Shown here one piece after another: positions 58,286 to 64,000 of a stretch of DNA of 64,000 nt. The stretch spans positions 124,001 through 188,000 of the forward strand of contig NZ_JAXMIH010000011.1 of assembly GCF_034366625.1 (NCBI RefSeq), read 5' to 3'. Positions within the stretch are counted from its first letter, which is position 1. Every line of letters starts with the position of its first letter. Below the pieces are notes generated by a model that was given only the letters and a program-made list of their open reading frames with translations, ran no database searches and was not told the origin of the DNA. A program made the translations under genes and the position numbers. The DNA comes from Prosthecobacter sp. GTDB lineage: Bacteria; Verrucomicrobiota; Verrucomicrobiia; Verrucomicrobiales; Verrucomicrobiaceae.

Positions 58286-60001
58286 ATGAACTTCCTGCAA
58301 CGCATCGAACGCGTCTTCTTCTGGCTCTCCGCAGCCTCCTCCGACAACCTCGACTCCTGCCCGGCCTGGGAACGGCGCAAATACGTGGCCTTCGGCGCGA
58401 CGGTGTTGGTGCCCTCGATCTTCGCCATCATCGCCTGCGCGTATGCGCTGAGCACGCTCACGGACAACTGGCTCATCATCGCGCCCGTGTCGCTCGTGTG
58501 GTCGTTCATCATCCTCACCGTGGACCGCGCCCTGCTGGCCACCTATCGCGCCTACCAGAGCTTCTTCCGCAAGGCGGCGCAGTTCTCGCTGCGCATGGTG
58601 GTGGCGGCGCTGATGGGCATCACCATCTCGCATCCGCTGACGCTGCTCTTGTTCAAAGACACCATCAGTTCGGTCATCGAGAGGCATCGCCAGGGCGAGA
58701 TCGAGGCGGCGCGTGAAACGTCCAAGCAGCAGAAAGTCGCCGTCGAGGCGCGCATCGTGCCGCTGGAGGCCGAGATCGCGAAACAGCGCGAGAACTGGAA
58801 CGCGACCTTCAGCGCCAAGTTCCTCGATGAAAACGGCAAGCCCGTTGAAAAGCCGCTCACCGACGAGGAAAAGCAGCTCAAGGCCGAACGTGATGCCAAG
58901 ATTGCCGAGGCTATCGCTCCTGGCAAAACGCGGCTCGAAGTGCTCGACAAGGAAATGGCCAAGCAGAGCGCCGATTACCAAAAGATCGCCGAGGAACTCA
59001 ATCACTGGCAGACGGAGTTCGAGCGCGAGGTCAATGGCCAGCGCAGCGGCATCATCGGCCTCGGCCCGCGTGCCAAAAGCATCCAGGAAGACCAGCTCAC
59101 CTGGCGTCGCGCCGAGTCCGCCCGCCTCAGCAGCGTGCTGGACACGATGACGAAGAACCGCGTGGTTCTTGTGGCCGAAATCAAGGCCGCCGAAGACGGT
59201 GTGAATGCCGCGCTCGATGCCAAAGCCGCCGAGGAAGCCGCCGCCAACAAGCCCGAGCAGGTGCGTATTCTCGCGTTGAAGCAGAAGGTGCAGACGGAGC
59301 AGGCGGATCAGTTCGTTTCGCAGCAGAACGCCATTCGCGAGACCTTGAAGACGCAGATCGACACGCTGCTGCTCCAGGAGAAAAACATGCACGAGGAAAT
59401 CACCGCCATCACGGCGGATGAGACCACCCGCATCGCCAAGATCCACGCCGAGCCGCGGCGCGACATCCTCACGCAGACGCTGGCGCTGCACGAGCTGTTC
59501 CAGAGCGGGGCGCAGGGCGGCATGTTCGCGCTCGTCGCTTATCTCGTGCTCACCATGCTCTTCATGCTGGTGGACACCATTCCTCTCATCGTGAAGTTCT
59601 TCTCCAAGCCCGGCCCCTATGACACGATACTCGACCGCGAGGAGATGGGCTATGAAGGCGAGCGCAAAGCCTTCCTTGATGGCTTCAGCCGCCAGATGAA
59701 GGAACTGGGTGAAAGCAAGCTGCTCAACCTGACGCGGAACAAGACGCTCGAACGCGCCTTGGTCACGGGCATGGACGGCGCTCGCTCGGCGAAGGAGTTT
59801 CTGGTCTATCTGATGGACCTGGAGCGTGACTTTGAAGAGAGAAGCCGCATCGCGCGGGAAATGGCCGCCAAGAGCGGCGTCAGCCACACGGCGGAAGCGA
59901 TCGAGGAGATGTCCCGCAATTTCTACGCCGACCTGCGCGAACGCATGGAGAAGTTCTTCCGCGAGGACGGCCGCCACACGCCTGCCACAGGCCGGGCGTG
60001 A
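58286..60001 (+). CDS. DUF4407 multi-pass membrane protein with long coiled coil
   Basis: A 571-residue DUF4407 protein. Three hydrophobic helices occur at about 31-55, 61-80 and 103-124, a Glu/Lys/Gln-rich coiled coil at about 130-405, a fourth helix at about 412-432 (MFALVAYLVLTMLFMLVDTI), and a helical C-terminus. DUF4407 proteins are found in diverse bacteria without a defined role. The start ATG at 58286 begins the characteristic FFWLSAASSDNLDSCPAW segment. No operon partner is seen. Confidence 0.88.
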   Translation: MNFLQRIERVFFWLSAASSDNLDSCPAWERRKYVAFGATVLVPSIFAIIACAYALSTLTDNWLIIAPVSLVWSFIILTVDRALLATYRAYQSFFRKAAQFSLRMVVAALMGITISHPLTLLLFKDTISSVIERHRQGEIEAARETSKQQKVAVEARIVPLEAEIAKQRENWNATFSAKFLDENGKPVEKPLTDEEKQLKAERDAKIAEAIAPGKTRLEVLDKEMAKQSADYQKIAEELNHWQTEFEREVNGQRSGIIGLGPRAKSIQEDQLTWRRAESARLSSVLDTMTKNRVVLVAEIKAAEDGVNAALDAKAAEEAAANKPEQVRILALKQKVQTEQADQFVSQQNAIRETLKTQIDTLLLQEKNMHEEITAITADETTRIAKIHAEPRRDILTQTLALHELFQSGAQGGMFALVAYLVLTMLFMLVDTIPLIVKFFSKPGPYDTILDREEMGYEGERKAFLDGFSRQMKELGESKLLNLTRNKTLERALVTGMDGARSAKEFLVYLMDLERDFEERSRIAREMAAKSGVSHTAEAIEEMSRNFYADLRERMEKFFREDGRHTPATGRA

Positions 60002-60790: not shown

Positions 60791-61132
60791 TCAAAGTGGA
60801 TGCACCGAAGGGATCACCCCCCCGCCGCATCCAGGAGCCGTTGAAGCTCCTGCGGAAGCATCGGGAGAAGTGAGGCTTGAGCGAAGGGCGAAGGGCGAAG
60901 GGCGAAGGGCGAAGGGCGAAGGGCGAAGGGCGAAGGGCGAAGGGCGAAGGGCGAAGGGCGAAGGGCGAAGGGCATTGATGCCTGAAGGACTTCCTCCCCA
61001 TGGCTTGCTGTCAGGAATCGACTCCCGCCCCTTTCTTGCATTGACTGGTATGAAAACACCCGCTGCCTCGACCACTCGCCGCACCCAAGGCTTGACCTCC
61101 GGCAACTTTTTCGCTGCAATCGGCTCATTCAT
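60791..61132 (-). CDS. Small hypothetical protein running through a heptanucleotide repeat
   Basis: A possible 113-residue protein. The first 54 residues (MNEPIAAKKLPEVKPWVRRV and on) look like a normal sequence, then the frame runs through 13 copies of a 7-bp repeat giving (PFALRPS)n, followed by an unrelated tail. A length change in the repeat would shift the tail's frame. No family recognised; it could be a disrupted or chance gene. Confidence 0.3.
   Translation of the reverse strand: MNEPIAAKKLPEVKPWVRRVVEAAGVFIPVNARKGRESIPDSKPWGGSPSGINALRPSPFALRPSPFALRPSPFALRPSPFALRSSLTSPDASAGASTAPGCGGGVIPSVHPL
60882..60972. repeat. Heptanucleotide microsatellite (CGAAGGG)13
   Basis: Thirteen perfect copies of CGAAGGG (91 bp). 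Perfection over this length implies recent expansion by slippage. Because the unit is seven bases, gain or loss of one copy shifts any reading frame that crosses it. Confidence 0.95.
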
Positions 61133-61185
61133 AAAATTCTTTTTGGGTTCGTGATACCCATTTTACCTCAATCCACCCCGCCAAA

Positions 61186-61232
61186 CCACACTAAACTGTG
61201 GGCGAATCTGATTCGCCCACAGTTTAGTGTGG
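61186..61232. repeat. 47-bp perfect palindrome
   Basis: Arms of 23 bp (61186-61208, beginning CCACACTAAACTGTGGGCGA, and 61210-61232) pair perfectly around a single base. No T-run follows on either strand, so a standard terminator is unlikely. It lies 21 bases upstream of the first gene of the cassette array, with a GTTCGAT motif at 61242-61248 between them. Confidence 0.9.
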
Positions 61233-61253
61233 AAAAACAACGTTCGATGCAAA

Positions 61254-61607
61254 ATGAAGAACTCGCAACCGGCTGCAATCACTGAAGGCCACGACGCAAG
61301 AAGCTCTAGCGTGCGAGTCGAGCGTGAACATGGATTCAAGTGGAGATCCTTGTCCACTTGGATTCTGATATTGGCTCCGATATCAATTCTCACTTCGGAT
61401 TGGATGTTGTTTCACGCGATCATCCTTTTTTCAGTTGGACCGTCCCTGGTTGGAAGTTCAATGAGCAAGCGGGGAGCATACTTGTTGCCATTCACCATTG
61501 CTCTTTGCCTTTCACTGTCGATTGCGGTTTTTGGTCATTCCTTTTTGACTGAGATCGGCGTGGCAGGATTTCTGCCTGAGCTACTCGGCCAAGGCTCCAC
61601 AAAATGA
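61254..61607 (+). CDS. Cassette gene 1: small membrane protein
   Basis: A 117-residue protein with three hydrophobic segments (about 36-52, 54-75 and 80-100) after a hydrophilic N-terminus. No family recognised. Its stop lies three bases before the first attC-like site, as expected for an integron gene cassette. The ATG at 61254 is preferred to an upstream reading through the palindrome. Confidence 0.55.
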   Translation: MKNSQPAAITEGHDARSSSVRVEREHGFKWRSLSTWILILAPISILTSDWMLFHAIILFSVGPSLVGSSMSKRGAYLLPFTIALCLSLSIAVFGHSFLTEIGVAGFLPELLGQGSTK

Positions 61608-61610
61608 AGA

Positions 61611-61737
61611 ATCGAACAAGCCGCATCGTGCAACCACTACCAGCCGTTCAGTTTCGATGATTTCACCTGACTACAACCTTAACCCCGTGATCGACGCGCG
61701 CCCCCGCTGGTAGTGGTGCATGTGCTCATCGTTCGCC
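61611..61737 (+). other. attC-like recombination site 1
   Basis: Outer boxes ATCGAAC (61611-61617) and GTTCGCC (61731-61737) are complementary at their GAAC/GTTC core. The inner arms GCAACCACTACCAGC (about 61630-61644) and GCTGGTAGTGGTGC (about 61706-61719) pair with one unpaired A in the left arm, the extrahelical base that orients attC sites. Between the arms is a variable loop. The conserved AAC/GTT boundary bases agree with known attC sites, although the 7-base boxes are not the exact RYYYAAC/GTTRRRY consensus. Confidence 0.72.
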
Positions 61738-61743
61738 TCACCC

Positions 61744-62205
61744 ATGAATACCCGCGTAGAGTTCAAGTCGGCAGCGTTCCCGAAGTATCCAAATGAGGAT
61801 GCTGAACTTGTGAACTCGAACTGCTGGGGAAAGCGGCTGGCGGAGTTCGTCCGTGATAGTCTCCCGAAGCACGGCATTCCCACCGAAGATATTCTTTGCG
61901 AAGATTGGGGCTGGCTTGTGAACGTGAAGAACGATGACTTCCCACTTTGGATCGCCTGCGGTGTTCAGGACGAGTTCTCCGACTCCGACGAAGAAAGCGA
62001 GGATGAAGGAAACACTTCTCAGAGCAGTCCTGCTGGAAACAACGGCATCACTCAGTTCTGTGTCTTCGTGACAGCGGAACCCAGCCTCGTTCAGAGATGG
62101 TTCAAGCGCGTGGATACGAAACCAGCCGTTCAGAAGGTTGTTGATGGCCTCCGTCGACTGATCGAGGCATCACCAGACATTCAAGAAGCCACATGGACAG
62201 AATGA
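61744..62205 (+). CDS. Cassette gene 2: hypothetical cytoplasmic protein
   Basis: A 153-residue soluble protein with an acidic insert (DEFSDSDEESEDEG near 80-93). Aromatic-rich strands (GWLVNVKNDDFPLWIACGV, QFCVFVTAEPSLVQRWF) suggest a compact alpha/beta fold. Not recognised. The ATG at 61744 lies six bases after the GTTCGCC box of attC 1 and the stop precedes attC 2 by 20 bases, a standard cassette layout. Confidence 0.7.
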   Translation: MNTRVEFKSAAFPKYPNEDAELVNSNCWGKRLAEFVRDSLPKHGIPTEDILCEDWGWLVNVKNDDFPLWIACGVQDEFSDSDEESEDEGNTSQSSPAGNNGITQFCVFVTAEPSLVQRWFKRVDTKPAVQKVVDGLRRLIEASPDIQEATWTE

Positions 62206-62225
62206 CCATCAACCTCCAAATCCAA

Positions 62226-62318
62226 GGCGAACAAAACGGATGCAGGCAACGGCTCGGATGGCATCTGTCGTGTCATCGACGCTTCCCGCTCGCCGTCGCC
62301 TGATCCGGGACGTTCGCC
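62226..62318 (+). other. attC-like recombination site 2
   Basis: A 93-bp site from GGCGAAC (62226-62232) to GTTCGCC (62312-62318). The inner arms CGGATGCAGGCAACGGC and GCCGTCGCCTGATCCG pair with one unpaired base in the left arm. It is nearly identical to sites 3 and 4, as is usual within a chromosomal cassette array. Confidence 0.8.
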
Positions 62319-62339
62319 CAACCAACAGCGTCACCCGTA

Positions 62340-63005
62340 ATGAAGCAGAAGGAGTTCACACTCTCAGGAGGATGCCTGAAGATAGTGGCTGGCATGGTGC
62401 TGATCGGCATCATGATTTGGGGCACTTATCAGCTCGCTTCGTTTGTTCTACCTTCGGCATGGAAGAGCGACATGGCGATGTTTGGCCTTTGCTTTGCCAT
62501 GCTCATTTTCGGCATCGAGTTTGCCACCGTGATTCTTAGCCCAGGTTCTTCGACACCTTTTGGCATTCTCGGTGCTAAGCCGAGTAACTCGACACCGGAT
62601 GCATTGCGTTCACGGGGCCTGTTGGTTTCTGAGACGTTTCATGCCCAAAGGGCCTTTGAGGTTGAACCCAGAGGAGACGAAGGTTCACAGTATTTCATTG
62701 AACTTACCGACGGGAGAGTGCTGTTTTTGGCTGGGCAGTATCTTGATGACTATGGCCCGATCACAGACGACCCCGAGCTGAGTCAGCCACGTTCATTCCC
62801 CAGCACTGAGTTCACTGTCCACAGCGATGCACGTCATGGGGGATGTGTTCAGATTGATTGCTCCGGCGATGTCATAGAACCATCGCCTGTCACTCCGCCA
62901 TTTACGAACGCCGAATACAGATTGAAGCAGGTGCCAAGCGATGGAGAAGTTGTGGATTCAGAGAGTTACGACACGATCTTAGCTAGGAGGCTTGCGCCAG
63001 CATGA
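62340..63005 (+). CDS. Cassette gene 3: membrane protein with soluble C-terminal domain
   Basis: A 221-residue protein with two N-terminal transmembrane helices (about 13-35 and 45-66) and a roughly 150-residue soluble domain (YFIELTDGRVLFLAGQYLDD, a beta-hairpin-like stretch). No family recognised. The gene lies between attC 2 and attC 3, 21 bases after the former's GTTCGCC box. Confidence 0.7.
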   Translation: MKQKEFTLSGGCLKIVAGMVLIGIMIWGTYQLASFVLPSAWKSDMAMFGLCFAMLIFGIEFATVILSPGSSTPFGILGAKPSNSTPDALRSRGLLVSETFHAQRAFEVEPRGDEGSQYFIELTDGRVLFLAGQYLDDYGPITDDPELSQPRSFPSTEFTVHSDARHGGCVQIDCSGDVIEPSPVTPPFTNAEYRLKQVPSDGEVVDSESYDTILARRLAPA

Positions 63006-63024
63006 CATCCCACACAAGAACGAG

Positions 63025-63180
63025 GGCGAACAAAACGGATGCAGGCAGCGGTTCGAATGGCATCAGTCGTGTCATCGACGGTTGCCAGCGCCCCCCGGCG
63101 CTGCCCTTCGGGTTGCCTTCTGCAAGCTATGTCGCTCCGCTCCATTCCCGCTCGCCGTCGCCTGATCCGGGACGTTCGCC
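63025..63180 (+). other. attC-like recombination site 3, long loop
   Basis: Ends GGCGAAC (63025-63031) and GTTCGCC (63174-63180), with inner arms as in site 2. At 156 bp it is much longer because the variable loop contains an additional hairpin, CAGCGCC/GGCGCTG, and about 60 further bases. Confidence 0.78.
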
Positions 63181-63207
63181 CAACTTCAGACGCCACTCAC
63201 CAAGCAC

Positions 63208-63645
63208 ATGAAGACCGTTCTCGATCGCATGGTTTCAGCGGGGTGTCTTCTCTTGCTGGCCGCCTTCGTGGTGGCGATTGTTTGGACGTTCATTGCAGGC
63301 TGGAATCACAGCATCTGGATTGGGGTCATCTTGGGACTCGGCCTCCTGCTAGGGCAGTATTCGCGTTATAGGCTTTGCCGTGCAGTTCAGGCCATGATTG
63401 ACTCAGCGTTTGTCTCACGAGGTATTCAGTCACCCACATTCACGCAGGCTGGTAGCTATGGCTATCCCGGTTATCGGCTCTCGTTCGCCAGTAAAGAGGC
63501 TGAGCAGGCTGCACTGAGCAGCGGTGCTTTGTCGGCATTCAAGGCCAGTATTCAGGACTATCATCGAGACGACGGATCGAAGAGCCGTCCGTTTGACGTT
63601 GAGATGGCAGTTCACACCACCTACCCGAACAAGCCACTCTTCTGA
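63208..63645 (+). CDS. Cassette gene 4: small membrane protein
   Basis: A 145-residue protein with two transmembrane helices (about 10-30 and 36-52) and a soluble tail ending in FDVEMAVHTTYPNKPLF. Not recognised. Start ATG at 63208 lies 28 bases after attC 3; the stop precedes attC 4 by about 33 bases. Confidence 0.68.
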   Translation: MKTVLDRMVSAGCLLLLAAFVVAIVWTFIAGWNHSIWIGVILGLGLLLGQYSRYRLCRAVQAMIDSAFVSRGIQSPTFTQAGSYGYPGYRLSFASKEAEQAALSSGALSAFKASIQDYHRDDGSKSRPFDVEMAVHTTYPNKPLF

Positions 63646-63678
63646 CTCACCTATGAGCAGCAAACATCCACAACCAAA

Positions 63679-63766
63679 GGCGAACGGATGCAGGCAACGG
63701 CTCGAATGGCATCTGTCGTGTCAGCGACACTTCCCGCTCGCCGTCGCCTGATCCGAAGCGTTCGGC
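63679..63766 (+). other. attC-like recombination site 4
   Basis: An 88-bp site from GGCGAAC (63679-63685) to GTTCGGC (63760-63766), with inner arms CGGATGCAGGCAACGGC and GCCGTCGCCTGATCCG. GTTCGGC differs by one base from the boxes of sites 1-3. The short spacer between GGCGAAC and CGGAT (no AAAA) sets it apart from sites 2 and 3. Confidence 0.78.
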
Positions 63767-63792
63767 CTATGGGTAACCTTCTTGTCCCCATC

Positions 63793-64000
63793 ATGATGAG
63801 CACTCAACAGCCTGAGATCTCTAGTAGAACCGATCACCAACGGCGCAGCTCGGGAGGGGCTGGCGGCATCGTTCTTGTTGGCTGGTTTTTACTGATGTGC
63901 TCTATCAACACTCTCTCCGCGGCCCCTGGCGCACGCGCGCATGGGGCCACCGCGTCGGAGGTGCTTGTCCTGCTACTCGTGCTTCCTTGCCTTGCCGTGA
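63793..64000 (+). CDS. Cassette gene 5, partial: small membrane protein
   Basis: An open frame from ATG 63793 (or 63796) that continues past the end of the window. At least 69 residues: a polar N-terminus, a hydrophobic helix (GGIVLVGWFLLMCSI near 25-39) and a second (VLVLLLVLPCLAV) at the window edge. Its position after attC 4 indicates the next cassette. Incomplete, so no family can be given. Confidence 0.5.
   Translation, partial: MMSTQQPEISSRTDHQRRSSGGAGGIVLVGWFLLMCSINTLSAAPGARAHGATASEVLVLLLVLPCLAV

Follow-up and report, generated by a model that had tools for sequence, protein, structure and literature searches.

An integron cassette array with attI and an intI remnant, and dispersed attI sites, in Prosthecobacter

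The cassette array

The window analysed here is a stretch of 64,000 nucleotides from Prosthecobacter sp., corresponding to positions 124001-188000 of contig C11 in a host genome of 6.65 Mb (30 contigs, 96.7% complete). An array of gene cassettes spans 61.2-64.0 kb of the window and runs on to 64.3 kb beyond its edge. Five plus-strand cassettes, each consisting of an ORF followed by an attC site, were found, four inside the window and the fifth, which is damaged, just outside. The initial annotation had described an integron-type cassette array without an integrase, with four complete plus-strand genes and one partial gene, and these genes were all recovered. It had also called for inspection of the sequence to the right of position 64000; the array does continue there, but the count thereby becomes five cassettes and a fifth attC site is added.

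The array was compared with 48 congener genomes, and 70 attI loci were inspected across the genus. Integrase genes (intI) were called with the TIGR02249 profile at a cut-off of 265 bits. The attC sites were scored with a covariance model, R1, trained on 26 sites from the host genome and its congeners; site 2 of the window was in the training set, and sites 3 and 4 were outside it. The features of the locus are as follows (window coordinates).

61037-61135, minus strand: intI 5' stub, 33 codons long, from a 'type A' IntI (one that has an N-terminal extension); the remainder of the gene is missing
61092-61120, plus strand: putative Pc-like promoter motif, TTGACC-17 nt-TGCAAT, directed towards the cassettes
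61186-61246, plus strand: attI, a 23-bp inverted repeat (61186-61232) and the core AAACAAC-GTT (GTT at 61242-61244)
61254-61607, plus strand: cassette 1 gene, 117 aa with hydrophobic segments, without known family
61611-61737, plus strand: attC 1, of the second sequence family, with 12-bp perfect arms and a long, perfect inner stem
61744-62205, plus strand: cassette 2 gene, 153 aa; the cassette is an exact unit (61730-62323) in two congeners
62226-62318, plus strand: attC 2, genus attC family, model R1 118 bits, fold z -3.1
62340-63005, plus strand: cassette 3 gene, 221 aa, hydrophobic segments at the N-terminus, without known family
63025-63180, plus strand: attC 3, model R1 88 bits, 64-nt insertion in the terminal loop
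63208-63645, plus strand: cassette 4 gene, 145 aa; a G029 gene with 89.5% DNA identity is likewise followed by attC
63679-63766, plus strand: attC 4, model R1 92 bits (63677-63769), fold z -3.1, spacer after R'' lost
63793-64000, plus strand: cassette 5 gene, incomplete in the window; the ORF continues past the edge and ends at 64104
64125-64311 (C11:188125-188311), plus strand, beyond the window: attC 5, damaged, without recognisable R'

The left flanking gene, ending at 60001, is presumably of the DUF4407 type, and the right one, starting at C11:188903, is taken by us to be of the DUF1501 type. In eight congeners (G044, G022, G009, G036, G023, G019, G043 and G030) the genes that flank the array lie about 50-370 nt apart with no array between them, and none was present in the examined flank sequences of the close relatives G040 and G010. 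The window array is thus an insert specific to this species.

Structure of the attC sites

The four sites first noticed inside the window are real attC sites, and chance is ruled out as their source. They show the complementary outer boxes (R''/R', GGCGAAC/GTTCGCC) and the unpaired base in the inner stem that had been reported from the sequence, here seen as one extrahelical base in the L''/L' arms, together with 4-nt spacers and a conserved loop. Sites 2, 3 and 4 belong to one sequence family and site 1 to another. The suggested covariance-model check, run with model R1, placed sites 2-4 far above background (E values of 3e-28 to 2e-20). Among the 26 sites, two-sided changes occur in 9 of the 22 pairs, which was reached in 0 of 500 shuffles. 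Folding of the bottom strand, also suggested beforehand, gave a structure better than those of shuffled sequences for sites 2 and 4 (z -3.1 each) and weaker results for sites 1 (z -1.9) and 3 (z -0.55). No match to attC or to another relevant RNA was returned by Rfam, and a home-made generic scan for attC gave too much noise to be relied on by itself.

Site 1, being of a different sequence family, was not matched by model R1. Its R'' (ATCGAAC) and the start of the cassette to which it belongs (GTTCGAT, 61242) are exactly complementary over 7 of 7 letters, and copies of site 1 with 74-78% identity lie close to a full intI in G008, a broken intI in G012 and an attI in G025. A match of this kind extends over 7-8 letters in window cassettes 1, 2 and 3 (GTTCGAT/ATCGAAC, GTTCGCCT/AGGCGAAC and GTTCGCCC/GGGCGAAC respectively). 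Across tandem arrays, R'' matches its own cassette start at 4.08 of 6 letters versus 3.08 of 6 for the R' of the same site (shuffles: mean 3.38, maximum 3.85), as would be expected if cassettes circularise at G↓TT. When R'' was matched with the start of its own cassette over the attI loci, the result was 19 against a shuffled mean of 14.9 and maximum of 18, which is not decisive.

The loop insertion of attC 3 (63077-63140, 64 nt) recurs at 86-98% identity in the attC loops of five other loci (L026, L022, L079, L113 and L112), resembling a small nested repeat.

As in clusters of attC sites lacking integron integrases (CALINs), every attC closes a unit with one small same-strand ORF, and the array includes at least two sites that have R''/R', L''/L', spacers and the extrahelical base.

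The cassettes

Searches of the cassette proteins against Pfam and NCBIfam returned nothing over the cut-offs, and plasmid searches with attC and with cassette 2 returned zero matches. Cassette 2 is found at 91% identity in G027, inside an array of five attC sites, and at 85% in G010. In both congeners the similarity begins at 61730/1 and ends at 62320-62323, bounds that fall at G↓TT. These comparisons show that cassette 2 has moved as an exact unit. A remoter homologue in another family of the same order lies between sites that look attC-like by eye.

The integron platform upstream of cassette 1

The initial annotation had stated that the expected intI gene is absent upstream of the first cassette. 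The full gene is indeed missing, but its first 33 codons and an attI site remain there. The stub corresponds to residues 6-38 of the G014 integrase (85% identity, E 1e-11, tblastn). In the type A integron integrases of G014, G037 and G010 (L033, L036 and L054), the TIGR02249 domain is preceded by an N-terminal extension some 140 aa long. Immediately left of the stub, about 13 perfect tandem copies of the heptamer GAAGGGC were observed (60881-60975).

The attI, contained in the roughly 110 nt that follow the stub, was recognized by position and homology: the same element forms the junction between intI and cassette 1 in G014, G037 and G010. Thus, an attI lies between the intI remnant and the first cassette of the window array, as in a complete integron. 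Its end closely resembles the published class 1 attI end, AAACAAAGTTRRRY (PMC12901181). In the palindrome, 79% of cells are paired and two-sided changes are not clearly beyond those of shuffles, so hairpin function is not claimed.

The attI end follows the TTGACC-17-TGCAAT motif at a distance of 155 nt. TTGACC, or a one-mismatch variant, stands at the same distance, with a hexamer ending in AT 17 nt further on, at about 37 of the 70 genus attI loci, and a TTGACC-like motif persists at L183, L190 and L167, where similarity to intI coding sequence is gone. A strict sigma-70 scan did not report the motif; its conservation fits a candidate Pc promoter.

Since stub, Pc-like motif and attI sit exactly where they would be expected, the locus reads as a beheaded integron and not as loose attC sites, and the stub together with an attI directly upstream of cassette 1 points to an integrase formerly encoded in cis.

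Integrase genes in the host genome and the genus

A genome-wide search for intI had been proposed. Searches of the assembled host genome with TIGR02249 and with a congener intI gave nothing but stubs and Xer-type proteins. Every TIGR02249 hit is Xer-like and scores far under 265 bits, and the two best-scoring tyrosine recombinases are closest to XerC/XerD; no intI scoring as complete by this profile lies in cis to the window array. The locus had been read as an orphan cluster or one whose integrase lies elsewhere. It is an orphan now, but its integrase was once in cis, to judge from the stub, and none is present elsewhere in the assembly. An intI could be missed because about 3% of the host genome is unassembled.

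Stubs of a second integrase type, type B, lie at C19:183046-183358 and C19:82080-82133 (L022 and L027), next to further attC sites. Judging from these remnants, the host genome has lost integrons of two integrase lineages, type A and type B.

Among the 48 genus genomes, an intI exceeds the TIGR02249 cut-off in 14, and broken or partial copies occur in others. The attC family of the window forms tandem arrays beside full intI in G014, G017 and G004, so the window repeat is the attC of the genus's own integrons. The family is also arrayed in G030, beside an intI in two pieces that scores just below the cut-off.

Dispersed attI and attC sites

Model R1 gave 17 attC hits in the host genome. Repeats scattered singly across the genome without cassettes had been named as an observation that would count against an integron. 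The hits are indeed scattered over several contigs and many are single, but most of those linked to an attI carry a cassette. About seven attI loci are present in the host genome: that on C11, C19:170642, C19:227543, C24:94780 (partial), C28:116679, C28:189466 and C6:944708. At the last of these, a 562-nt attI-cassette-attC unit stands between two convergent genes, and the homologous flanks in G040 are 10 nt apart.

An attI of the window type was found in 27 of the 48 genus genomes, in some by short matches. In an exact-pattern scan of named genomes, matches were confined to Verrucomicrobiaceae and other Verrucomicrobiota drafts, including Prosthecobacter sp. and Akkermansia. A full intI lies beside three of the 70 attI loci and an intI 5' stub at about 18. 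Nearly half of the 70 have an attC within 2 kb downstream, and several others are near contig ends.

The left ends of the intI homology cluster at 160-219 nt, just upstream of TTGACC (24 of 67), and at 40-69 nt, at the attI palindrome (26 of 67); only three of the 67 fall at 100-159 nt. This clustering looks as if promoter plus attI, or attI alone, had been kept. The dispersed modules were searched for a common GTT or crossover motif at their left ends, and none was found.

Minimal attI sites were also observed, in different species, downstream of a few conserved host gene families that recur (L160, L161, L170 and L173). Further groups of this kind comprise L172, L179, L185, L191, L194 and L198, and L171, L176, L188 and L197. 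Such placement may reflect a favoured location or some connection with the termination of host genes. At L053 (G037:C519) and L174 (G025:C859), a tyrosine recombinase ORF of 298-301 aa starts about 60 nt past the attI crossover, as if a gene or element had inserted at attI.

Orthologous attI sites with different cassettes

Three groups of orthologous orphan attI sites carry different cassettes in different species. In the first (G000, G044, G043 and G010), the upstream sequence is 83-94% identical over 285-888 nt as far as attI, and four different genes follow; at the three loci with enough sequence, flank homology returns after the unlike inserts. In the second, at C19:227, G000 and G040 have about 2.2 kb as well as attI in common (93%) and differ in their cassettes. 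The module is missing from G043, although its flanks are there, and comparison with four congeners places the right-hand boundary of the G000 module at the attC end. The third group is formed by G040, G043 and G023. In the first two groups, as in the G040/G043 pair, the GTT core is where homology ends, and such a break at the crossover is the trace expected of cassette exchange at an orphan attI. The model detected no attC at several of the orthologous loci (the L160 group), and cassette exchange there rests on the homology break.

Origin of the array and of the dispersed sites

The array is probably a beheaded integron, and the orphan attI sites, about seven in this integrase-less genome, would be pads loaded by IntI in trans or before its loss. 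IntI would have recombined the folded bottom strand of attC with attI at G↓TT, inserting the cassettes. The intI gene was presumably lost afterwards by deletion down to its first 33 or so codons; loss of intI with retention of Pc, attI and cassettes would be favoured. The orphan attI sites would then be cassette landing pads, served in trans by the IntI of the genus, which comes and goes, or filled before each loss. This idea of landing pads follows from the orthologous orphan attI sites that hold different cassettes across species, with homology breaking at the crossover. More tentatively, and with somewhat less than even confidence, the integron of the genus may be pictured as a distributed system. 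Many conserved orphan attI pads per genome would lie behind a Pc-like promoter or a host gene, mostly with one or a few cassettes, which would be swapped over species time by an integrase acting in trans from an intI that is rarely kept and quickly lost.

Plain decay is a serious possibility, though less likely than not, in which each attI locus is a separately acquired integron minus its intI, an ordinary CALIN with no action in trans. Remnants of just this kind occur: stubs of variable length at the loci counted above, some of them long and frameshifted (L141), broken intI genes in several congeners, and stubs of two lineages within the host. Decay accounts poorly for the 26 of 67 loci that begin right at the attI palindrome with no intI traces. 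Several of these stand directly after conserved host genes common to several species and yet hold different cassettes, which needs recombination without a linked intI. Dispersal of attI-cassette modules by another mobile element, with IntI uninvolved, is unlikely. The variable left ends without a crossover motif would suit such an element, whether a rolling-circle element or the 298-aa tyrosine recombinase gene whose ORF abuts attI at L053 and L174. That recombinase, however, is present at few loci, and the single module for which several congeners allowed mapping has an attC end on its right. It is also improbable, and slightly more so, that a working intI sits in the unassembled part of the genome and that an active integron uses the scattered sites as off-target or satellite sites. 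The assembly is incomplete, repeats break assemblies, and in draft congeners many attI loci run up to the end of a contig; against this, no full intI stands beside any inspected assembled attI of the host, and the searches described above returned stubs and Xer proteins.

That the repeats might be a dispersed palindromic family (REP- or MITE-like) mimicking attC is scarcely credible. Conserved loops and many single copies on different contigs and on both strands would be in keeping with it, but such a family would not account for tandem arrays beside full intI, an attI next to intI, cassettes that are exact units, the match between R'' and cassette start, or the attC-specific bulge and spacers. 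This reading was rejected on the intI-linked arrays in congeners.

Relation to known integrons

CALINs and loss of intI are already known (PMC8618304; PMC9024848; PMC12444791), as are integrons in Verrucomicrobiota (PMC8618304), and attI outside class 1 has been described as poorly known (PMC9024848). The array itself is of a known kind, a CALIN or decayed integron; the dispersed orphan attI sites appear to be new. A literature search in a partial open collection gave no report of multi-copy integrase-less attI with cassette turnover. Integron theory assumes one attI beside one intI, whereas attI in this genus is multi-copy and mostly without an integrase. The locus and its relatives give a definition of attI for Verrucomicrobiota and a clear case of intI loss with a presumably expressed cassette retained. 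Also, the multi-copy orphan attI sites with differing cassettes make it testable whether a shared integrase serves many expressed landing sites.

Like a CALIN, the window array has cassettes with at least two attC sites and lacks a complete intI nearby, and intI loss is one proposed origin of CALINs (PMC9024848; PMC8618304). Unlike a CALIN, it keeps attI, a promoter-like motif and the intI 5' end, and the genome has several more orphan attI sites at scattered places. The inactivated sedentary chromosomal integrons of Xanthomonas are similar in showing an ancestral integron, repeated loss of intI and CALINs elsewhere (PMC12444791). They differ in having one platform site, at ilvD, whereas the attI of this genus is multi-copy and integrase-less, with different cassettes per species at the same attI. 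The attG insertions of Loot et al. (2024), as far as they are described in PMC12444791, likewise are dispersed chromosomal cassettes placed by IntI away from its own attI; in that description they enter ordinary genome sequence, whereas the dispersed sites of this genus carry a conserved attI-Pc element of about 55 to about 160 nt. In the delta-attI-type cassettes of class 1 and class 2 integrons, pieces of attI also travel with cassettes (PMC12901181). Those are short fragments (14-18 nt in class 1) downstream of the ORF, whereas the attI of this genus is full, lies upstream of the cassette and has its own chromosomal locus.
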